A DNA stretch of 52,494 nt, from the IMG/VR virus record IMGVR_UViG_3300042452_000944, positions 1 to 52,494 of that record. The stretch is one strand, 5' to 3'. A model generated the notes under the pieces. That model saw only the letters and a program-made list of their open reading frames with translations. It was not told the origin of the DNA and ran no database searches. The DNA comes from a virus. Shown here one piece after another: positions 46 through 35,830 of the stretch. Made by a program: the position numbers and the translations under genes. The stretch's first letter is position 1. Every line of letters starts with the position of its first letter.

Positions 46-483
46 CTAATTAGTCCTATAGAAAAATAGGTTATATACATTTTCCTCCGCTAGATCCCCT
101 TGGTTCATCGCTAGGAGAATTCCTAGCTGAACTTCCTCACTAAGATCCCCCCATTCTTTCTCATGCCCATCATAAGGAGAAAGAAAATGTCCCCTGCCGT
201 CAGATGACATAGCATCTGATACTAGAGTATCCATATCCCCACATTTTTCTACAATGCTAAGAATAGCATCGTTAGATGATTCGCCGTCCTGTTGTAGCGT
301 AGAAAAAACCTCTTCTGGTAGTCCTGTTTGATCCGATAAGAAACTTTTGTTAAATGCCCACAAACTTTCCTCAATGTAAGATTTTACAGCTTTGTCAGCC
401 TCTTCATCGGTGAATAATGCCCACTCTTTCCCATCAATCTCAATCACTTGTAAGCCGTTGTAATCATTAACATCGTAATCCAT
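46..483 (-). CDS. Hypothetical acidic phage protein, 145 aa
   Basis: The function is not recognised. The protein is acidic and soluble, with a stretch near residues 20-50 (WALFTDEEADKAVKSYIEES) that I associate from memory with small conserved proteins of phages and plasmids. The ATG at 483 is preceded by a good Shine-Dalgarno (AAAGG, 8 bases upstream). The gene has its own sigma70-like promoter at 534-562 and a CRP-like palindrome further upstream. One arm of a HIP1 hairpin lies 19 bases beyond the stop, at the window edge. Confidence 0.75.
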   Translation of the reverse strand: MDYDVNDYNGLQVIEIDGKEWALFTDEEADKAVKSYIEESLWAFNKSFLSDQTGLPEEVFSTLQQDGESSNDAILSIVEKCGDMDTLVSDAMSSDGRGHFLSPYDGHEKEWGDLSEEVQLGILLAMNQGDLAEENVYNLFFYRTN

Positions 484-533
484 GACTGTTACCTTTCTCT
501 TTTTTTTTTGCTTGTCTGTACCCTTACCCTTAA

Positions 534-562
534 AAGATAACTTATTAAGGGTAAGTTGTCAA
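534..562 (-). promoter_or_regulatory. Sigma70-like promoter of the 46-483 gene
   Basis: On the minus strand, TTGACA (557-562) and TATCTT (534-539) are separated by exactly 17 bases. An inverted repeat TTACCCTTA/TAAGGGTAA flanks the -10 and could be an operator. The same arrangement recurs at 3681-3709 in front of an unrelated gene. Confidence 0.75.
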
Positions 563-652
563 TCCTTGTTTACAGCTAATTTTTTTTATTTAATTTAGGG
601 CTTAGCTGTAATTCCCTAACAATTCAATAGTAACAGATCCATATTCTAGTAG

Positions 653-668
653 TGTGATCGCAATCACA
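653..668. promoter_or_regulatory. CRP-like palindrome 1
   Basis: TGTGATCGCAATCACA matches the cAMP-receptor-protein consensus TGTGA-N6-TCACA at every half-site base. Cyanobacterial homologues (SYCRP1, AnCrpA) are known to use this consensus. It lies about 95 bases upstream of the -35 box of the 46-483 gene. Binding is inferred, not shown. Confidence 0.6.
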
Positions 669-794
669 ATAAACGTTATTTTTACCTAGTTGTTTTTATA
701 TTATAGCTATAGTGTTTTATCTATGGACGATCGCACTATGGCGGCTATATAATCGCTGTATTATTATATAACCATTTAGCGATAGATAAAACAT

Positions 795-850
795 AGGACG
801 ATCGCATTAGATCCACTCCATTAGTACATGGGATCTAGTGCGATCGTCCT
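795..850. repeat. HIP1-bearing hairpin after gene 868-1395
   Basis: A 20-bp stem (795-814 with 831-850, one T-G wobble) encloses a 16-base loop. Each arm starts with AGGACGATCGCA, an extended HIP1 core. It begins 17 bases after the stop codon of the upstream minus-strand gene. There is no U-run, so it is either a non-canonical terminator or an mRNA 3'-end stabiliser. Confidence 0.75.
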
Positions 851-867
851 GGTTAGGGAATTATATC

Positions 868-1395
868 TTAATTCCCATTACAAACATTCTGGAGTCTTAG
901 CGATTGTCGCTTTCCTCCTTCTAATAAGCCTAACACTTTACCTTCGATCATATCATGTCCTGTTGCGTACAAGGCATTTTTACTTTTATTTAGACTAGAT
1001 CTAAGATGTTTGATCGTATACCGTGCAGCATTAAGGCATTCTTTACGCAATTCTTTATAGTTGTTACCTGTAGCACTATAGTCTACAGACCTTAAACCGT
1101 AAGAATGGCAGCATTCTACCAGGTAATCTTCTGGCAGATCATTATCGTTATCAATGCCACAAAAAGATTTAACCGATCGCATTTTATCGGGTTCTACCTT
1201 TCTACAGTTAACTATCGACAATTCTATCATGTACTTTTCAGTACTTTGGGAATCACTCTCTAATAAGTTGATCAATTCCATTACTAGATAATACCCTTCT
1301 ACTTTGGTATTGTAAAACCATTTACCACCATAATCTAGGTAATTAACATCACCACTTAACCAATTAAATCGAACTGTAGCGTTGTTGTTAGCCAT
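868..1395 (-). CDS. Hypothetical protein, 175 aa
   Basis: Function unknown. The N-terminus (FNWLSGDVNYLDYGGKWFYN, residues 10-29) resembles a conserved small-protein family of phages and plasmids, by recollection only. The ATG at 1395 has an AAGGAAGG ribosome site. Its own promoter is at 1436-1464 and a HIP1 hairpin closes the unit, so it appears to be a monocistronic early gene. Confidence 0.75.
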   Translation of the reverse strand: MANNNATVRFNWLSGDVNYLDYGGKWFYNTKVEGYYLVMELINLLESDSQSTEKYMIELSIVNCRKVEPDKMRSVKSFCGIDNDNDLPEDYLVECCHSYGLRSVDYSATGNNYKELRKECLNAARYTIKHLRSSLNKSKNALYATGHDMIEGKVLGLLEGGKRQSLRLQNVCNGN

Positions 1396-1435
1396 GGTTT
1401 CAATCCTTCCTTTTCGTTTCTTTAACCATACCCTT

Positions 1436-1464
1436 ATATTATCAATCTATTTTCTATTTGTAAA
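1436..1464 (-). promoter_or_regulatory. Sigma70-like promoter of 868-1395
   Basis: TTTACA (1459-1464) and TAATAT (1436-1441) lie 17 bases apart on the minus strand. The sequence just downstream (AAGGGTA) is shared with the promoters at 534-562 and 3681-3709. Confidence 0.65.
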
Positions 1465-1835
1465 CCCTAATTTACAGGTATTTATACTTAATTAGCTTAC
1501 AACATTAATCTATAGCGATCATATATAGAAGTCTATAGCCCTTTATTTTGCGATTTGAGCCCTATTAAAGGCTTATTAGTAGAATACCCTAGGATAGCTA
1601 TTAGAAAGGCTTTATAGGGCACTAGAGCAAGGGTATATGGGAAGATAGATAGAACGATCGCTATCCTAGTGCTAGAGTATTTTATAAATTCATTTGTACT
1701 ACTGTAGATTTATTTATTACTATCTTTATATATAACCATATAGTGATGAATAGGGTAGCAGAGTAGTACGATAGTGTGGTAGTACAAATGATCGCGATCA
1801 AAATAGATCGCGATCTATTTCACTTTGGTATAGTG

Positions 1836-1883
1836 GATAGGACGATCGCTATAGTATATCTGCACTATAGCGATCGCTCTATC
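1836..1883. repeat. HIP1-bearing hairpin after gene 1898-2377
   Basis: Arms 1836-1855 and 1864-1883 pair at 18 of 20 positions around an 8-base loop. Each arm has an intact CGATCGC core. It lies 14 bases beyond the stop of the minus-strand gene, the same placement as the other members of this hairpin family. Confidence 0.75.
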
Positions 1884-1897
1884 TATTTTCTCTATAC

Positions 1898-2377
1898 CTA
1901 GAAAGTATCGGGATCTAGTTCTAGGTACCTCCTGGGTACAGCATACCCTTTGGTAATTTCTGAAGCTAGTAAATCATCACCGTTAGCAAGGGTAAAAAAC
2001 GCTATTTTTTCGCCTTTAGACCGTATTTGTTTTTTACCAGTGATAACCTTGTCAGGGCTAAACGATAAACTATCATGGCTTATTAAGCGTAACTCTCCTA
2101 ACGGATAGTCAGTACTTACATGGGTAGGATATATTATTCCAGCGTTATGATATGGGTCGTAAAACCTGACTCTAGGGGTTATCCCTAAAGCTTTCCTGAT
2201 ATTTGTATCATCAGGACTCCCATCATAAAACTCCCGTTCACTACCAGGATTATATACTTCTAACTTTACAGGCATCTCTAGATTACCAGATCTAAATGCC
2301 TGATTGACTTCGTAACCGTCTTTGGAATTCCCCCAAACGTCATAGGTAATTACTTCCCAGATTGTTGAAATAATCAT
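1898..2377 (-). CDS. Hypothetical protein, 159 aa
   Basis: Not assigned. It opens with MIISTIWEVITYDVWGNSKD, a pattern I associate loosely with conserved plasmid and phage proteins. The rest is mixed alpha/beta, with no membrane segment or catalytic motif. The start at 2377 has a strong GGAAAGG ribosome site. It stands alone between spacers and is followed by a HIP1 hairpin. Confidence 0.75.
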   Translation of the reverse strand: MIISTIWEVITYDVWGNSKDGYEVNQAFRSGNLEMPVKLEVYNPGSEREFYDGSPDDTNIRKALGITPRVRFYDPYHNAGIIYPTHVSTDYPLGELRLISHDSLSFSPDKVITGKKQIRSKGEKIAFFTLANGDDLLASEITKGYAVPRRYLELDPDTF

Positions 2378-2430
2378 GATAACCTTTCCTTTCCCTTTTC
2401 TGTAGTGGATTGTAGCGTATTTTTCCCCTT

Positions 2431-2465
2431 AGGACGATCGCTACCGTGCTAATAGCGATCGTCCT
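2431..2465. repeat. HIP1-bearing hairpin after gene 2482-2931
   Basis: A perfect 13-bp stem (AGGACGATCGCTA, 2431-2443, with 2453-2465) and a 9-base loop, starting 16 bases after the stop codon of 2482-2931. It is the most compact and perfect member of the family. Confidence 0.8.
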
Positions 2466-2481
2466 ATCCTATTGTAACCTA

Positions 2482-2931
2482 TTATTGGAATAGACTACGG
2501 TTAAACCTGTTACCTAATTTTGGTAACATAATATCACCAGATCCCTTTAACCGTGGGGGAGCGGGTTTTCTCCTAAGAACTGTATCAATATTTACAGGCG
2601 ATTTTGTTTTTAACTTTGGCGTATCTGGTTTAATCCGAAATTGGTTATTTTTCTTTACTGGCATAGGCACCGGTTTTTTGTTTGCCTTAAGAATGGGTTT
2701 GGGTAAGAGTGATACTGGGCGATCGTCCTTCTCAGTATCATTATTATCACAAGCTGTTAACAATTGATCTACCAAAGCAATCTCAGAGATTTTCTGAGAT
2801 TCGGGAATATTGTTTTCATAATCGGCGATCAATCCTTCCAATACTGGCTTTTTAGGGTTTACCCCTGTAAATAGATTTAATTGTCGTGCGGTTCTAACAT
2901 CTTGTTGATAATTACCAGTGAAAACAGACAT
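2482..2931 (-). CDS. Hypothetical Pro/Lys-rich protein, 149 aa
   Basis: Unknown function. The N-terminal ~70 residues are mixed helix. Residues 75-135 are rich in proline and lysine (LPKPILKANKKPVPMPVKKN), so probably disordered and basic, suggesting nucleic-acid or protein contacts. An AAAGGA ribosome site lies 8 bases before the ATG at 2931. It is located between a tRNA-like gene and a HIP1 hairpin. Confidence 0.7.
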   Translation of the reverse strand: MSVFTGNYQQDVRTARQLNLFTGVNPKKPVLEGLIADYENNIPESQKISEIALVDQLLTACDNNDTEKDDRPVSLLPKPILKANKKPVPMPVKKNNQFRIKPDTPKLKTKSPVNIDTVLRRKPAPPRLKGSGDIMLPKLGNRFNRSLFQ

Positions 2932-2972
2932 GATTGATATCCTTTGTACTCGTTTACAGCCCTATAAGGGCA

Positions 2973-3049
2973 TGCGATCGAGGGGATTCGAACCCCAGTT
3001 AACCTATCTATCAATATAGCGATAGATGATTAAGCTACCTAGCGATCGC
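2973..3049 (-). tRNA. tRNA-like gene, anticodon uncertain
   Basis: It has a 7-bp acceptor stem GCGATCG/CGATCGC, a 4-bp D stem, and a good T arm (GGGG-TTCGAAT-CCCC) with discriminator A. The anticodon stem CTATC/GATAG encloses an 8-base loop GCTATATT and leaves too many bases between D and T arms, so no standard anticodon can be assigned (AUA is the triplet after U33). No CCA is encoded. The acceptor stem is itself a HIP1 octamer. It lies 18 bases after the stop of 3068-3628, where sister genes carry HIP1 hairpins. It may be a degenerate tRNA. Confidence 0.55.
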
Positions 3050-3067
3050 CGTTTAATTAATCTTTAC

Positions 3068-3628
3068 TCATTTACTCAATAGACAATCCAGTAAATGAGT
3101 AAAGTCTGGGTCAGGCCCATGGTAGCTAACGCCATAGTCGCTATGTTCTACAGTACCTTCCATATTGTCAAATAAAAATCTTAGTTCTTCTTTATCCATA
3201 TTTTGCAGAATGGTTACAAGATACTCCTCAATTTCATTCGAACTAGCGTTATCATATTCACTAATGAAATCACGATAACCGTAAGACTCCCAGGCTTGAT
3301 CATCTCTTTCGGTCTCTAATTGGCTATGATGTTCTTCATTCAAAATGGGATACTCACTCAACAAATTTTCTATTTCTTCTACAAAATCCTGACTATCAGG
3401 AGAAACCAGCAGGATTTCGAACCAACCACAGGCCCAATGCCCGAAATTGTGTACTTCGTATTCTATCTCCTTTTCGTCCATTGTTTGTTGAAGAAATTCC
3501 CAATTTGACAATGTTACACAGCATTCTGTATCACGATTTATCGATATTGGCATAATATGCCAATTTTCGCGATCTTCAATCTGAATATGATTATCAAATC
3601 CCGTAGGCTTAAATCCAGAGTATTGCAT
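3068..3628 (-). CDS. Hypothetical protein, 186 aa
   Basis: No function assigned. The core (NFGHWACGWFEILLVSPDS, about residues 61-79) resembles a conserved protein family seen in phages and plasmids, by recollection only. The C-terminal half is strongly acidic. The start at 3628 is preceded by GGAAAGGG. Upstream regulation mirrors that of 46-483: the promoter at 3681-3709 and the CRP-like site at 3803-3818. Confidence 0.75.
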   Translation of the reverse strand: MQYSGFKPTGFDNHIQIEDRENWHIMPISINRDTECCVTLSNWEFLQQTMDEKEIEYEVHNFGHWACGWFEILLVSPDSQDFVEEIENLLSEYPILNEEHHSQLETERDDQAWESYGYRDFISEYDNASSNEIEEYLVTILQNMDKEELRFLFDNMEGTVEHSDYGVSYHGPDPDFTHLLDCLLSK

Positions 3629-3680
3629 GATTCCCTTTCCTTTACTTGTATGTGGCGTTTCTCTGTACCCTTACCCTTAT

Positions 3681-3709
3681 AATCTATCTTATTAAGGGTA
3701 GATTGTCAA
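3681..3709 (-). promoter_or_regulatory. Sigma70-like promoter of 3068-3628
   Basis: TTGACA (3704-3709) and TAGATT (3681-3686) are 17 bases apart, with the same ACCCTTAATAAG spacer core and downstream TAAGGGTA as the promoter at 534-562. Confidence 0.75.
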
Positions 3710-3802
3710 CTGGTGTTTACAGCTAATTATTTTTTATTTAGTGGTTAGCGCTTAGCTGTAATGCCCTAACAATTTAATAATAGCAAACTGACAAAATGAT
3801 AG

Positions 3803-3818
3803 TGTGATCGCAATCACA
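3803..3818. promoter_or_regulatory. CRP-like palindrome 2
   Basis: TGTGATCGCAATCACA, identical over all 16 bases to the site at 653-668 and at a similar distance (about 175 bases) from the start codon it faces. Host CRP binding is inferred. Confidence 0.6.
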
Positions 3819-4099
3819 ATTAACCTATTTAATAATCTATAGCGATCATTGTATTCTATCTATGCCTTTATTCCCTACTGTAAGGGCCTACAGGCCTAGG
3901 GGATAGCTGTAAGGTATCGGATATTAGGGGATAGATAGCCTAGCTTTGTAGGGCTTAAGAGATAGGGTAGGGATTATTTAGTGGGGATTATTAGGCGAGT
4001 CAGAATAGATTAGTAGATAGGTCAGGACGATCGCACTAGGTTGTAACGTTTATTAGTTATATAGGTATTTAAGTATATAACTATATAGTGATGAATGAG

Positions 4100-4162
4100 A
4101 TAGTACAAATGATCGCGATCGTTCCCTGATATGGTTAGGACGATCGCGATCATTTGTACTAT
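4100..4162. repeat. 23-bp perfect hairpin after gene 4175-4450
   Basis: Arms 4100-4122 and 4140-4162 are perfectly complementary over 23 bp around a 17-base loop. The core of each arm is GATCGCGATCG. It begins 12 bases after the stop of 4175-4450. Nineteen bases of the left arm recur at 1781-1799. Confidence 0.8.
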
Positions 4163-4174
4163 ATTCTTACTAAA

Positions 4175-4450
4175 CTAGAGAAGTTGATACACATCTAATA
4201 GATTGGGATCGGACTCCCAGCTAAATACGGATTGATCGCTAGATTTTGTAATGAAATCTAGCTGATAGCCAGATAGTTTTATTAAATTATCCTCAGCTTG
4301 CCTAAGATCTGAGAATTTTAATACTTGACCGTTTGTCCTAATTTTACATAGAAAGTATATATTATCTTCACAAATAACGGCTACTTCCGCATACAACCAG
4401 GGATCGCAACAAACAGTGTAAAATGATCCAATTATCTTGATAACAGCCAT
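4175..4450 (-). CDS. Hypothetical protein, 91 aa
   Basis: Unrecognised. Predominantly beta-like, with a Cys pair near the N-terminus (VCCDPWLYAEV). The leader AAAGGAGTCTAGAATCATG is identical, base for base, to that of the upstream gene 4543-4923, which suggests duplication of the leader or shared translational control. Confidence 0.65.
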   Translation of the reverse strand: MAVIKIIGSFYTVCCDPWLYAEVAVICEDNIYFLCKIRTNGQVLKFSDLRQAEDNLIKLSGYQLDFITKSSDQSVFSWESDPNLLDVYQLL

Positions 4451-4494
4451 GATTCTAGACTCCTTTGTTATTGTTGTAGTGATCTGTGGACTAA

Positions 4495-4516
4495 TAGCCT
4501 AGGCTTTACTAGGCTA
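4495..4516. repeat. Short hairpin after gene 4543-4923
   Basis: TAGCCTAG (4495-4502) pairs with CTAGGCTA (4509-4516) around a 6-base loop, 27 bases after the stop codon. There is no HIP1 core and no T-run, so its role is uncertain. Confidence 0.4.
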
Positions 4517-4542
4517 GCTTGAAAAAACGTGTTTATGGAATA

Positions 4543-4923
4543 CTAGTGTAGACCGTTATACCATCCTGACTCAACTATATCATCACGTAAATCATAGATA
4601 TCATTATGATCTGGCTGCATGATATATAGATCGCCTTCTCCACTGACCCCCCCATCGTATGTTCTTACTACTACAATAGAGCGAGAATCTAGCTTAAAAG
4701 CGTTATACCATACTTCTATACCATCACCATTATCAAACTCATCGCCCTGTAGAAGATGATCATATATAGCTTGATCATCATCACCGAAATTTATATTATT
4801 CTCTGATCGGTTGCTATAACGATCCATTGCACTATAAATAGATTTTTGTGAAGCTTTCACATCATTACCGGTTAACCGTTTAACGGCGATCGCTCTCTGT
4901 TGTAGTTCCTTACTTGCTGGCAT
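4543..4923 (-). CDS. Hypothetical protein, 126 aa
   Basis: Unknown. The N-terminus is basic and helical, the C-terminus acidic. The ATG at 4923 has an AAAGGAG ribosome site in a leader shared with 4175-4450. A third CRP-like palindrome (5014-5029) lies about 90 bases upstream. Confidence 0.7.
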   Translation of the reverse strand: MPASKELQQRAIAVKRLTGNDVKASQKSIYSAMDRYSNRSENNINFGDDDQAIYDHLLQGDEFDNGDGIEVWYNAFKLDSRSIVVVRTYDGGVSGEGDLYIMQPDHNDIYDLRDDIVESGWYNGLH

Positions 4924-5013
4924 GATTCTAGACTCCTTTACTTGTTTGTAGCGTGTTATTCAGTTAACTTAGTTAACCTTGATAACAATATATCCCTAAC
5001 GCTAATCTGTTTG

Positions 5014-5029
5014 TGTGATCGCAGTCACA
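5014..5029. promoter_or_regulatory. CRP-like palindrome 3
   Basis: TGTGATCGCAGTCACA, one base different from the other two sites and with both TGTGA/TCACA half-sites intact. It faces the 4543-4923 gene. No clear TTGACA-type promoter was found between the two. Confidence 0.55.
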
Positions 5030-5668: not shown

Positions 5669-6367
5669 TTAGGGTAGTGTGAATAATTTTTCCATAGCTT
5701 TTTTAGATCCTGTATCTTTAGTTAGGCTACTAGATATTTCTTTTTGCCATACGCATTGGAAATCATCGGGTGCTGTATATTCACTTACATAGATAGTATG
5801 ACCTTGATCGCGTTTAGTACGACACCATTGGTAGAAGGCTTGATGATCAAAAGTGGATGTTTTATAGGATGTAGTGTTTTTATAAGGAGGATCGCAATAT
5901 ATCGTACTATTGTCAGGTATAACAAGGTTTTTATAATCGGATACAAAAAGTGCGATCGTCTGGAGTTTAGGTGATTGTTTACAAGCGCTTTTGTAAGCTT
6001 CTTTAATATAATCGCGTCGATGTTCTTTATCTCTACGCCATCCACCAAAGAATTTACCCCCGTAACTAAGAGCGTATCCTATGTAGGATCTATGAGGATA
6101 ATCGAGATTGTTTCTAGCCTCTTTATAATCTTCTTCGGTGAACTCTTGATTATTTCTTGGTAGTTGATCTAGATGGTATTTTATTGATGATAAAGCTTGG
6201 ATAACGGTTTCGTTCAGGTCTGATCCGATACGATCGCCTGTAATTTTGTCTATTAAGTTAGCACCTCCTACAAAAGGTTCTACATAGACTTTACTTGCAC
6301 CATGGTGTTCAAGGATTATAGGAAGGATATGTTTAGCGATTCGCATCTTGCTACCCATGTATTTCAT
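5669..6367 (-). CDS. dam: DNA adenine methylase, Dam/D12 class
   Basis: N6-adenine DNA methyltransferase using S-adenosylmethionine. Visible features are the N-terminal MKYMGSKMRIAKHI, the SAM-binding motif VEPFVGGANLIDKI (residues 29-42) and the catalytic DPPY at 159-162. At 232 aa it is at the short end for the family but keeps both essential motifs. GATC specificity is the family norm and is inferred. It overlaps the upstream gene by ATGA, so it is translationally coupled within a four-gene minus-strand operon. A second Dam-type gene lies at 20757-21608. Confidence 0.88.
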   Translation of the reverse strand: MKYMGSKMRIAKHILPIILEHHGASKVYVEPFVGGANLIDKITGDRIGSDLNETVIQALSSIKYHLDQLPRNNQEFTEEDYKEARNNLDYPHRSYIGYALSYGGKFFGGWRRDKEHRRDYIKEAYKSACKQSPKLQTIALFVSDYKNLVIPDNSTIYCDPPYKNTTSYKTSTFDHQAFYQWCRTKRDQGHTIYVSEYTAPDDFQCVWQKEISSSLTKDTGSKKAMEKLFTLP

Positions 6368-7511: not shown

Positions 7512-8696
7512 TTATGCCGACTGAAGACCTTCCAAAGCGTAGAACTGAGGATTGGGTGCGATAACGTACCGAGGATTGTCTTGAACGAAAGGGGCGATAA
7601 TCGGTGCCGATCCACCAACAACCAAAATTTGAGCAAACTGATTGTGGATTTCTTTCCAACGAGTACGCATCTGGGTTTGGATATCGTCAATCCACTCAGG
7701 TAAGATCGCGTCGTAAGCAGTCTTAAAGTTGATAGCGTGAACAGCGAATGTGCCATCAGCGATCGCGTCTAGAATTTGGCCTTCTGATTTAATTAACCCT
7801 ACTTCAACCGCAATATGAGCGGCTAACGCGGAAGTAGCACCGTCTAGAACCAAATCGTAGTCTCTAACGATAGTCCCATCAGGATGAAACAATCGAGCGA
7901 TCGCTGTACCACCACCTAAGTCCAGAACACCGTTTAGATATTTAGGGTACTGATAAAGACCTTCCTTTAATGCACGATACCAGGCAAACTTACCTTCGGC
8001 GGCTACAATAACTCCCTTAACAGTTACGTTAAACTCACGACCGTTAACTGTAAAGTTATGCACACCTTTTAGATTCAAAAAAGGCGATCTTTGATCTTCG
8101 TCTTGGTCGTCGGGCACGGTACAAAGTAAGTTTTCGATTACAGCGTCTTGAGGTACTAGACCGGAAACGCCTGCGTAGAAAAATTGCTTAACTAGTTTCC
8201 ACTTATCACCACCAAAAGTAGGCTTAGCCAAAAATGAGCCAGCGATTTGACCAACAAGAAAACTGTTACCACCAAAACTAACATCGAAAGAAAGATCGTT
8301 AACAAAATCGTTAGTAGAGTAGTCAACGTCTTGGCGACTGGATTTTCTCAACGAATAACTGGGAAAGTTGATGATGGTTTTCCCATCAGTAATAGCGTTA
8401 AAACGATTACCTAGATCAAAACTGATTCGAGAGATTTGATTTTTTGTCTTTGAAGAAATGGCCATAGAAATTTTCCGCTCCGGTAGTGTAATACTACAAC
8501 TGGTATCTTTAGTATCATCTATCAAACTCAATTGTTCTAAACTAGGATCAGGAGGTAGAATCACTTCTAGATTGGAACCCCAAACGTTTTCCATTAATAG
8601 TTTTACGATTTGGCTAGTCGAAAGACCAGTTTGTTCGGCAGCTATACCTAAAGCTTGTGCGTATTTTCCAAAGAGTACAGGGCGAACAGAATTCAT
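7512..8696 (-). CDS. Actin-like ATPase, ParM/StbA type
   Basis: Filament-forming ATPase of the actin/Hsp70 superfamily, of the kind used for plasmid or phage DNA partition. Phosphate-1 motif FDLGN (D94-N97), phosphate-2 motif LDLGGGT (D259-T264) and adenosine motif VVGGSAPII (GGSA 361-364), followed by PNPQFYALEGL at the C-terminus. Length 394 aa. The ATG at 8696 avoids the 68-base overlap with the glycosyltransferase that an upstream start would create. Residues 1-78 precede the actin core and contain a helix-turn-like stretch (IAAEQTGLSTSQIVKLLMEN), which is unusual for ParM. Role inferred. Confidence 0.82.
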   Translation of the reverse strand: MNSVRPVLFGKYAQALGIAAEQTGLSTSQIVKLLMENVWGSNLEVILPPDPSLEQLSLIDDTKDTSCSITLPERKISMAISSKTKNQISRISFDLGNRFNAITDGKTIINFPSYSLRKSSRQDVDYSTNDFVNDLSFDVSFGGNSFLVGQIAGSFLAKPTFGGDKWKLVKQFFYAGVSGLVPQDAVIENLLCTVPDDQDEDQRSPFLNLKGVHNFTVNGREFNVTVKGVIVAAEGKFAWYRALKEGLYQYPKYLNGVLDLGGGTAIARLFHPDGTIVRDYDLVLDGATSALAAHIAVEVGLIKSEGQILDAIADGTFAVHAINFKTAYDAILPEWIDDIQTQMRTRWKEIHNQFAQILVVGGSAPIIAPFVQDNPRYVIAPNPQFYALEGLQSA

Positions 8697-8709
8697 TGTC
8701 TTTTTTTTT

Positions 8710-9579
8710 CTAAGAATTGATATATAGATCATAGCATCTGTTTGCGAAAGTCGTATCCCTATATTGGTATGTTTCAAAGAGGTTTTTGTAAAAGTCTGAC
8801 AATCTTTTAGATTTGCTTAAAAAGTTGATCGCATCTTGACCGTACAGATCAACTAGATCACATTGGTTATTCAATCTCATCTCGGCACATTGTCTAGCCA
8901 ATTCTGAATATCTTCTTTGTATCAGTATTTTATCAATGTTAAATCGTATGCTGTTAGATATAAATAACCTTTTATATAGAACTTCATCAACAAAACCCAG
9001 TTTGGATATTTCTATCAGTCTAAGCCACAGATCTCTATCTTGAGAGTAGTAGAAAGCGTTTCGATAACCACCAACGCGATCGTAGTGGTATTTTCTTATC
9101 ATTACTTCTCCACCAGTGAAGCAATTACGACCGTTGATTAATGAATATTGGAAAGTGTCGGGATGATCGCATACTCTAGTACGTCGGTATATATTACCTC
9201 CATGAGACATATCACAATCGAAAACATTACAACCCACAGCACTAAGATCGCGATCGTCCTTTAGAAGTCTATATTGTTTTTCCAATCGTGTTGGATAGGA
9301 AATATCTCCTGAACCATGGATGGCAATATAGTCACCAGATGATTGTTCAATGGCGTTGAGTAATCCATTAACAAAACCAATGTTTATGGAATGACGAATT
9401 ACTTTAAGTCGTGGATCTTGAAACTTTAGTAACTCTTCGTAGGTATGGTCCGTTGAACAATCATCGAAGGCAATGATCTCAAGGTTTGTGTAGGTTTGTC
9501 TTAATAGACTGCCAATAGAGGTTCTAACAAGGTTGCCGCGATTATAGAAGCCCGTTACAACACTAATTAAATCACTCAT
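8710..9579 (-). CDS. Glycosyltransferase, family 2
   Basis: GT-A fold nucleotide-sugar transferase. Motifs: the start strand LISVVTGFYNR, DDCSTD (39-44), GSGD (89-92) in place of the usual metal-binding DxD, and SQDRDLWLRL (179-188). At 289 aa it is a complete catalytic domain with no membrane anchor. It overlaps the MurA-like gene by 8 bases, so the two are co-translated. Possible roles are modification of host surface glycans or of phage DNA; the sequence does not decide. Confidence 0.85.
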   Translation of the reverse strand: MSDLISVVTGFYNRGNLVRTSIGSLLRQTYTNLEIIAFDDCSTDHTYEELLKFQDPRLKVIRHSINIGFVNGLLNAIEQSSGDYIAIHGSGDISYPTRLEKQYRLLKDDRDLSAVGCNVFDCDMSHGGNIYRRTRVCDHPDTFQYSLINGRNCFTGGEVMIRKYHYDRVGGYRNAFYYSQDRDLWLRLIEISKLGFVDEVLYKRLFISNSIRFNIDKILIQRRYSELARQCAEMRLNNQCDLVDLYGQDAINFLSKSKRLSDFYKNLFETYQYRDTTFANRCYDLYINS

Positions 9580-20756: not shown

Positions 20757-21608
20757 TTAGAATTCATAAGGTGTAGTGTTGTAATTAGTAATAATAGCTT
20801 CAATCATGGGATTGCGGTTGTTATTACTTGCTCCAACATGGTAAAAATGTTCTTTAGTTAAAATATTAAACTTACCCCATAAAGATTTAACATATTCATT
20901 TTCTCTGAAGTCATTATGATGCCATGTAGATAATATAAATTTACTTTTTGTGTTTGATAGAGCTTTGAAGAGACACGTTTCGTGCTCACTATCCCAACTG
21001 TTGTAATAATCAACGTGTCTATCAATGTATGGTGGATCACAGTAAATAATATCTTCTGCCCCACTTTCGGAGATAGTTTTCTCGAAATCCTGACATTTAA
21101 AAATAAAATCTTTAGTCTTTAACAAAAGGCAGACATGAGAAATCTGATTAGTAATTTTCGTAATGTAAGCCTGAGCAAATCGCTGCGGTTTTCGACAGAA
21201 AGGTATATTGAATTCTCTTTTGCGGTTAAACCGAATCATTCCATTGAAGCCAGCCCTATTCAAAAACAAGAAATCGAGTGGTTGATGCTCCTTGTTGAAC
21301 CTCTCACGCACCTTGTAGTAGTGAGATTCGCCTTTATCTAAAAGCTTCGCACCTTCCTCTTCTAAGTAGCTTCTGACTTTTTCTGGCGTAATATTTCCGT
21401 CAGAAATACCTTTATAAAAGGCGATTAAATGAGGGTTTGTATCGCATAAGAGTGCATGTTTTGGTGCTAGGTTAAAGGCGACAACACCCGTACCCATAAA
21501 TGGCTCAACCCATCTTCCGTCAAATTCATGTGGGACTATGCTACTAATCCAAGGAACAAGCTTAGTTTTTATTCCTTGAGATTTTATGGGTGGAATATTT
21601 ACTTTCAT
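20757..21608 (-). CDS. Second DNA adenine methylase, D12/Dam class
   Basis: N6-adenine methyltransferase of 283 aa. It has the N-terminal [16 protein letters not shown] motif EPFMGTG (F37-G41), FNRAGFNGM-like [14 protein letters not shown] (115-128), IPFCRKP and catalytic DPPY (191-194). It is more like restriction-modification methylases in size than the first Dam. The ATG at 21608 is preferred over a start 26 codons upstream that would overlap the neighbouring gene. No cognate endonuclease is visible. Direct repeats flank it. Confidence 0.9.
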
Positions 21609-21616
21609 TTCTTGTG

Positions 21617-22018
21617 TTATCTTTTTTTGTAATATATGATGTCTTCTATGACCGTCAATAGAAACACCAACTGAATAATCGGCCACAGTAGACGCAGCCC
21701 TCTATAGTCAGATCGCATCTCTACATTCAGAAAGTGATGATTTTCCTTCTCTTCTTCAATGGTGAAAATTAACATACAGTTATTAACGTTAACTTTCGTA
21801 ACGTTGCGATCTTGTTCTATAGTCACTTCTTGTGTGTGACCAAAACGTTCTAAATTAAATCGTACTAATTCAGAAGATTTTGAAAAAACTTCTTTTACTT
21901 TTACACCGCACAAAGTAAACCAATGCGCTTTGTCTAGATGCCATATATCTAGGAGATGGTTTCTTTGAAGACTAATAGGTATATCAAACCTATATTTATT
22001 TTTAGCGATCAGATACAT
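21617..22018 (-). CDS. Membrane-anchored hypothetical protein, 133 aa
   Basis: A soluble beta-rich N-terminus is followed by one C-terminal hydrophobic segment ([20 protein letters not shown]) and a basic end, so probably tail-anchored in the membrane. The ATG at 22018 overlaps the previous gene by 17 bases; a start at 22063 is possible. Third gene of the nblA operon. Its last ~18 codons are duplicated at 20640-20702. Confidence 0.65.
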
Positions 22019-35144: not shown

Positions 35145-35830
35145 CAGTACTCGTTTCTCAGGCGTTGAATATCTTGCGTAGTTATAACATCTTCGGATAA
35201 TAAAATCTCTCCTAGATCCAAATAGTTCATATTCCATATATTAGAGATTTCCATGAGTTCTTCTAACTTTATAGGAGTCTCTCCACTCTCACGATGTTGA
35301 ACGAAAGAAGGGTTATAACCAAGGTTCATAGCGAACACCCATTGTGAACTCATACCTTGCTTTATTCGTGTTGCCATTAACCAACGCCCTTGTCTAGTTA
35401 ATGTTTCTTTTATAGTAACTTCATTAAGAGGAAATGGAGTTAATTCATGTACGGTTCTTTTACCCTCTTCCATATCATATTTGAAGTCATCTTTACTATC
35501 GTTTATGTGCATCTTATAAGTGGTCAGGAAATATTCAAAATCTTTAACAGAAGTCAATTCTTCTTTTTTTTCTGTTATAACTTTTAAAACATTTCTAGGT
35601 GTTATATTAAACGCCTTACTAAAGGCGTATACATCTACTAATCTAATCGAAGCATAACCACATTCTCTATCTCGTACTTGATGTTTTTCCCATTCAAGAG
35701 CGTTAGCTAAATCTTCCTGTTTGAATATACCATATTGATATCTTAATGCTTTTAAGCCCATACCGTATATTCTATTGCTTTTACTCCGAGATTTTGGTGA
35801 AGATTTACTTTTTGAAATCACGACGAACAT
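35141..35830 (-). CDS. Tandem HTH (XRE-like) regulator, 229 aa
   Basis: Two helix-turn-helix units: N-terminal (LKALRYQYGIFKQEDLANAL ... VDVYAFSKAFNI, about 26-76) and C-terminal (WLMATRIKQGMSSQWVFAMN ... LEELMEISNIWN, about 149-200), joined by an acidic linker. Transcribed against the surrounding virion genes and divergent from the capsid gene, so its promoter faces the capsid promoter. It overlaps the protease stop by 4 bases. Likely controls late transcription or itself. Confidence 0.72.
   Translation of the reverse strand: MFVVISKSKSSPKSRSKSNRIYGMGLKALRYQYGIFKQEDLANALEWEKHQVRDRECGYASIRLVDVYAFSKAFNITPRNVLKVITEKKEELTSVKDFEYFLTTYKMHINDSKDDFKYDMEEGKRTVHELTPFPLNEVTIKETLTRQGRWLMATRIKQGMSSQWVFAMNLGYNPSFVQHRESGETPIKLEELMEISNIWNMNYLDLGEILLSEDVITTQDIQRLRNEYC

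Follow-up and report, generated by a model that had tools for sequence, protein, structure and literature searches.

Exact CRP-type palindromes at predicted class II promoters in a gene cluster of a probable cyanophage

Palindromes and promoter layout in a leftward gene cluster

The window analysed here, the full stretch of 52,494 nucleotides from IMG/VR virus record IMGVR_UViG_3300042452_000944 (positions 1 to 52,494), is a 52-kb, HIP1-rich virus fragment. Three long spacers within a leftward cluster of small open reading frames (ORFs) without assigned function each hold one exact copy of TGTGA-N6-TCACA, the consensus of the cyclic AMP (cAMP) receptor protein (CRP). The genes of the cluster are probably early or accessory, with 'early' drawn from the gene layout and not visible in the sequence itself. 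The palindromes, the predicted -10 boxes beyond them and the genes that they precede are as follows.

653..668, minus strand: CRP-type palindrome, exact match, gene strand TGTGATTGCGATCACA, upstream of the ORF at 46-483
627..632, minus strand: predicted -10 box TACTAT, 20 nt past site 653; predicted start ~620, site centre -40.5; identical in the related phage G004 (below)
46..483, minus strand: 145-aa ORF, function unassigned, downstream of site 653; weak phrog_15770 match
3803..3818, minus strand: CRP-type palindrome, exact match, gene strand TGTGATTGCGATCACA, upstream of the ORF at 3068-3628
3777..3782, minus strand: predicted -10 box TATTAT, 20 nt past site 3803; predicted start ~3770, site centre -40.5; identical in G004
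3068..3628, minus strand: 186-aa ORF, function unassigned, downstream of site 3803; weak phrog_3906 match
5014..5029, minus strand: CRP-type palindrome, exact match, gene strand TGTGACTGCGATCACA, upstream of the ORF at 4543-4923
4987..4992, minus strand: predicted -10 box TATATT, 21 nt past site 5014; predicted start ~4980, site centre -41.5; identical in G004
4543..4923, minus strand: 126-aa ORF, function unassigned, downstream of site 5014

An earlier note on this DNA had reported TGTGA-N6-TCACA at 653, 3803 and 5014; its coordinates and sequences are correct, and the 52,494 bases contain no further exact match. They exceed expectation by a wide margin: dinucleotide shuffling yielded a mean of 0.13 sites, with none of 100 shuffles giving three, and 0.015 were predicted by a fifth-order Markov null, in which HIP1-like hexamers are already accounted for. 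When the half-sites were held constant and the spacer was varied (TGTGA-Nk-TCACA, k = 0-14), k = 6 gave three matches, k = 5 and k = 8 gave a single match apiece, and every other length gave none, such that over-representation is limited to the 6-base spacing. Allowing up to two mismatches gave 34 matches against 26 by chance in the window, a near-chance level that confines the signal to the perfect sites. All three lie outside ORFs, as the earlier note had said in placing them only in leftward spacers, even though ~89% of the window is coding, and HIP1 does not account for them.

Across seven sites in total — these three and four in the related phage — the distance from the gene-proximal half-site to the -10 box that follows it (TATTAT, TACTAT or TATATT) is always exactly 20 or 21 nt. 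The background frequency of TAN3T in these spacers is 3.75% per position, and its occurrence at one or the other of these two offsets in all of four distinct spacers has a chance probability of ~3e-5, a figure that ignores shared promoter ancestry; the sequences between site and -10 box largely differ among the promoters. Where a -35 hexamer would stand, 0-2 of 6 bases agree with TTGACA, leaving no recognisable -35 element. Relative to the starts predicted from the -10 boxes, all seven palindromes are centred at -40.5 or -41.5, the class II position. The phage sites thus show the sequence features of a class II CRP promoter: the half-sites, a predicted centre near -41.5 with a -10 box, and a poor -35. 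The layout closely matches that described for Synechocystis PCC 6803 and Anabaena PCC 7120, where most identified CRP-activated genes carry TGTGAN6TCACA with TAN3T ~22 bp downstream (PMC2633013). Like those SyCRP1 and AnCrpA promoters, the phage promoters combine the palindrome with TAN3T ~20-22 nt downstream; unlike them, they precede phage genes in a phage genome and are known from sequence.

Conservation in a related phage

Capsid proteins of 99-100% identity are shared by six IMG/VR contigs, only two of which reach the cluster, and these two represent one phage: G005 matches part of G004 at 99.999% identity, G004 being a contig of 139 kb that is probably a complete genome because it carries a 102-bp terminal repeat. 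G004 contains four exact sites (101,817; 103,664; 105,278; 108,671) within 6.9 kb and none elsewhere in its 139 kb. Three of the four precede genes orthologous to those in the window, and the fourth (103,664) lies upstream of an ORF with an amidoligase domain.

G004:108671: ortholog of site 653, TGTGACTGCGATCACA
G004:105278: ortholog of site 3803, TGTGATCGCTATCACA
G004:101817: ortholog of site 5014, TGTGATCGTAATCACA

Among the three orthologous pairs, differences fell at 0 of 30 half-site positions, 7 of 18 positions in the N6 core and 0 of 18 positions in the -10 boxes, against a flanking divergence of ~10% (44/446 upstream, 25/234 downstream). All seven within-site changes thus lie in the core (P = 0.0004); counting two of the pairs as reverse-complemented leaves four changes, again all in the core (P = 0.016). 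Because the half-sites stay fixed while the core changes, sequence-specific recognition of the half-sites is supported, and with it the view that selection would hold the half-sites and leave the HIP1-like centre free to change.

The two reverse-complemented pairs show a further peculiarity. For sites 3803-3818 and 5014-5029 against G004:105278 and G004:101817, reverse-complementing one copy cuts the differences from 2 to 1 and from 4 to 2, respectively, and the single GATC switches half between the orthologous palindromes, as if they had been inverted in place. A weaker fifth candidate in G004, at 116957-116972 (L098:16957), reads GGTGATTGCGATCACT with TAAAAT 20 nt downstream and stands upstream of an ORF at 117020.

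Beyond this pair of phages the arrangement was not recovered. In a pattern scan of viral contigs covering 46 stretches, matches outside the G004 phage, which is represented by two assemblies, showed no homology to window ORFs, mostly lacked HIP1, and were judged to be chance; a narrower viral scan that included the -10 box again returned the G004 phage alone among HIP1-rich contigs. Phages that have hardly any HIP1, or none, encode distant homologues of the proteins of 145 and 186 aa, and there the 450 nt upstream contain no site.

Candidate regulators and competing explanations

The window's capsid protein is 40% identical to a Cylindrospermopsis (Raphidiopsis) phage capsid, which makes a cyanobacterial host likely; a search by capsid protein of 386 cyanobacterial genomes returned one weak partial match, insufficient to name a host. 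We considered whether the phage might supply the reader of the sites itself. Across seven phage records, domain searches detected neither HTH_Crp nor a cNMP-binding domain; in three records adenylyl cyclase was looked for as well and not found, and a phage-encoded CRP or cyclase was accordingly rejected.

On the bacterial side, a genome pattern scan of 49 stretches gave mostly scattered matches, with a single cyanobacterium serving as the entry point to the phylum. One Leptolyngbyaceae genome encodes an NtcA-like protein with the helix STRVTVTR alongside a CRP-type protein with ARETVTR, the latter retaining the R-E-x-x-x-R pattern through which CRP contacts DNA. Among 292 cyanobacterial genomes, 86 carry an ortholog of this CRP-type protein and 10 carry homologues ~33-41% identical to it. 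The motif outnumbered its reversed control 375:211 in the ortholog genomes and 103:10 in the homologue genomes, showed no excess in genomes without a CRP match (192:202), and was intermediate in 35 genomes with weak CRP matches only (77:27). Enrichment thus follows the presence of a CRP homologue, tying the motif to CRP-like proteins across cyanobacteria. Five small genomes of 1.9-2.6 Mb (G144, G148, G271, G232 and G295) each hold 12-22 exact TGTGAN6TCACA sites against 0-2 controls together with a CRP homologue that shares 33-40% identity with the query, and apparently possess sizeable CRP regulons.

The earlier suggestion that host CRP reads the sites is well supported in this light, though indirectly and by sequence: by the half-sites, the class II spacing, the missing -35, the failure to find a CRP-family gene in the phage records and the enrichment in cyanobacteria with CRP homologues. 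The sites are real and under selection, and we consider it fairly probable that they mark class II promoters of a host CRP of the SyCRP1/AnCrpA type. The palindromes would be bound by this receptor; because each site stands at about -41 of a promoter with a -10 box but no -35, cAMP-CRP, in the manner of class II activators, would bring in the host's RNA polymerase to transcribe from the predicted starts. Expression of a cluster of small phage genes would in this way be coupled to host cAMP, a signal that in cyanobacteria has been connected with nutritional conditions, nitrogen starvation among them (PMC4284465).

Several points weigh against this reading. The host's CRP is assumed, since the host is known only as a likely cyanobacterium. 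Conservation was seen between two independent phage genomes whose promoters are partly duplicates of one another, and eleven isolated cyanophages had zero or one match each, the three with one match lacking the -10 spacing, so the feature is not general. In sampled host loci with the motif, the TAN3T peak at 22 nt was weak (5 of 60 orientations). Finally, boxes predicted for host regulators in cyanophages do not always hold up in gel shifts (PMC10976474).

The leaders downstream of two sites contain additional elements that bear on who might control these genes.

534..562, minus strand: proximal sigma70-type promoter TTGACA-N17-TATCTT; counterpart at G004:108776
3681..3709, minus strand: proximal sigma70-type promoter TTGACA-N17-TAGATT; counterpart at G004:105386
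570..611, unstranded: inverted repeat TTACAGCTAA/TTAGCTGTAA in the leader; counterpart at G004:108728
3717..3761, unstranded: inverted repeat TTACAGCTAA/TTAGCTGTAA in the leader; counterpart at G004:105335
520..552, unstranded: ACCCTTA/TAAGGGT inverted repeat around the proximal -10; a possible operator
3667..3699, unstranded: ACCCTTA/TAAGGGT inverted repeat around the proximal -10; a possible operator

The nested inverted repeats are common to leaders 520-611 and 3667-3761 and to G004, and are possible operators of a phage repressor. We infer tandem promoters at 46-483 and 3068-3628, the distal of the two dependent on an activator and the proximal perhaps under the control of a phage repressor; at 5014 a proximal companion is missing. 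With a proximal consensus promoter at two of the three genes, CRP would there add to or modulate expression and would not be the sole switch. Elsewhere in the window are an EPSP-synthase-family enzyme, MurA/AroA-like (PF00275; 9572-10855, minus strand), which is unusual for a phage, and a ParM/MreB-like actin homologue (7512-8777, minus strand) with weak ALP_N and MreB-like_C matches.

Given such repeats, which resemble phage operators, the palindromes too could serve as operators, read by a repressor or activator that the phage itself encodes and that belongs to another helix-turn-helix (HTH) family with affinity for TGTGA-N6-TCACA. Weak HTH matches occur among the proteins of G004 (HTH_36 at L098:18831-19760; HTH_3-like at 35618), and a site overlapping the -35 position would suit a repressor as well. 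Such a protein would need to mimic the CRP consensus and the class II geometry, each of them exactly, however, and the absent -35 favours an activator; moreover, no HTH_3 match was found in the window. We regard it as unlikely, although worth keeping in view. Another host regulator of the CRP/FNR family appears less likely still. The chief candidate, NtcA, is a CRP-family activator that shares the class II spacing, coexists with a CRP-type protein in the examined cyanobacterium, and has predicted sites in cyanomyoviruses (PMC3037559); family members other than CRP may also bind CRP-like sites (PMC2633013). Yet all seven sites carry GTG/CAC, whereas NtcA requires GTA-N8-TAC, and NtcA sites at the right distance from a -10 numbered one in the window against 2.5 expected, with a mild excess in G004 (14 versus 8.1). 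NtcA was rejected on the wrong half-site and the lack of class II-spaced enrichment in the window.

Explanations that dispense with a regulator fare worse. The earlier note had raised an origin from HIP1, and GATCGC does occur within sites of a HIP1-rich phage, but this proposal did not survive: none of the sites contains GCGATCGC, the cores in G004 include TCGTAA and TCGCTA, and variation falls in the HIP1-like centre, not in the fixed half-sites on either side. Counting both strands, the window contains 214 copies of GATCGC, of which only three follow TGT, all three with TCACA in place (expected 0.002-0.06). On this conditional count and the position of the variable bases HIP1 was rejected as the source, and the fifth-order expectation together with enrichment at spacing 6 only makes a by-product of HIP1 or chance extremely improbable. 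Nor do the palindromes behave as RNA hairpins. A 5-6 bp fold is possible (-3.7 to -4.7 kcal/mol), but the TGTGA/TCACA stem is fixed in 7 of 7 sites, the sixth pair is broken in three, and no run of T follows the palindrome. The site itself is upstream of the predicted start and would therefore be absent from that transcript. For want of compensatory changes the hairpin was rejected, and we give it almost no credence.

Parallels and biological meaning

Control of cyanophage genes by a host stress regulator has precedent. In S-PM2d such a regulator acts on cyanophage promoters, as one would in the phage described here; there the regulator is PhoB, the signal is a different one, and control was demonstrated by gel shift and transcriptomics (PMC10976474), whereas our sites are predicted from sequence. 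NtcA promoters of T4-like cyanophages (PMC3037559) likewise involve a CRP-family host activator and were predicted from sequence, but they carry GTAN8TAC and belong to marine myoviruses, whereas the present sites carry TGTGAN6TCACA, belong to another phage group and one gene cluster, and were examined for conservation and spacing. Promoters of coliphage T1 also respond to host cAMP-CRP (PMC6737242), by repression in E. coli, while the geometry seen here predicts activation. Of the traits of host-stress-regulator promoters, conserved sites and intergenic position are seen in our phages, and no CRP-family domain was found in the phage records, so that the regulator would presumably come from the host; the literature searched held no paper joining cyanophages with CRP or cAMP control of phage genes.

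Two D12-class adenine methyltransferases are encoded in the window (5669-6367 and 20757-21686, both minus strand), and all seven CRP-type sites contain exactly one GATC, overlapping a half-site. Owing to this combination, adenine methylation might switch CRP access during infection. As a broader and decidedly speculative proposal, which we think improbable in its entirety, a freshwater-type cyanophage lineage would use class II CRP promoters, two of them with a second, possibly repressible promoter, to wire this cluster to host cAMP, making its infection strategy dependent on the host state that cAMP signals.

With sites, start positions and candidate regulators all specified, testing is simple, and a strongly conserved set of class II CRP promoters would be useful in cyanobacteria, where experimentally determined CRP sites are few. 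In the literature cited, host control of cyanophage genes has been demonstrated for phosphate (PhoB) and merely predicted for nitrogen (NtcA). Through CRP, the phage may read the physiological state of its host; if so, it would sense a second messenger and not one nutrient.

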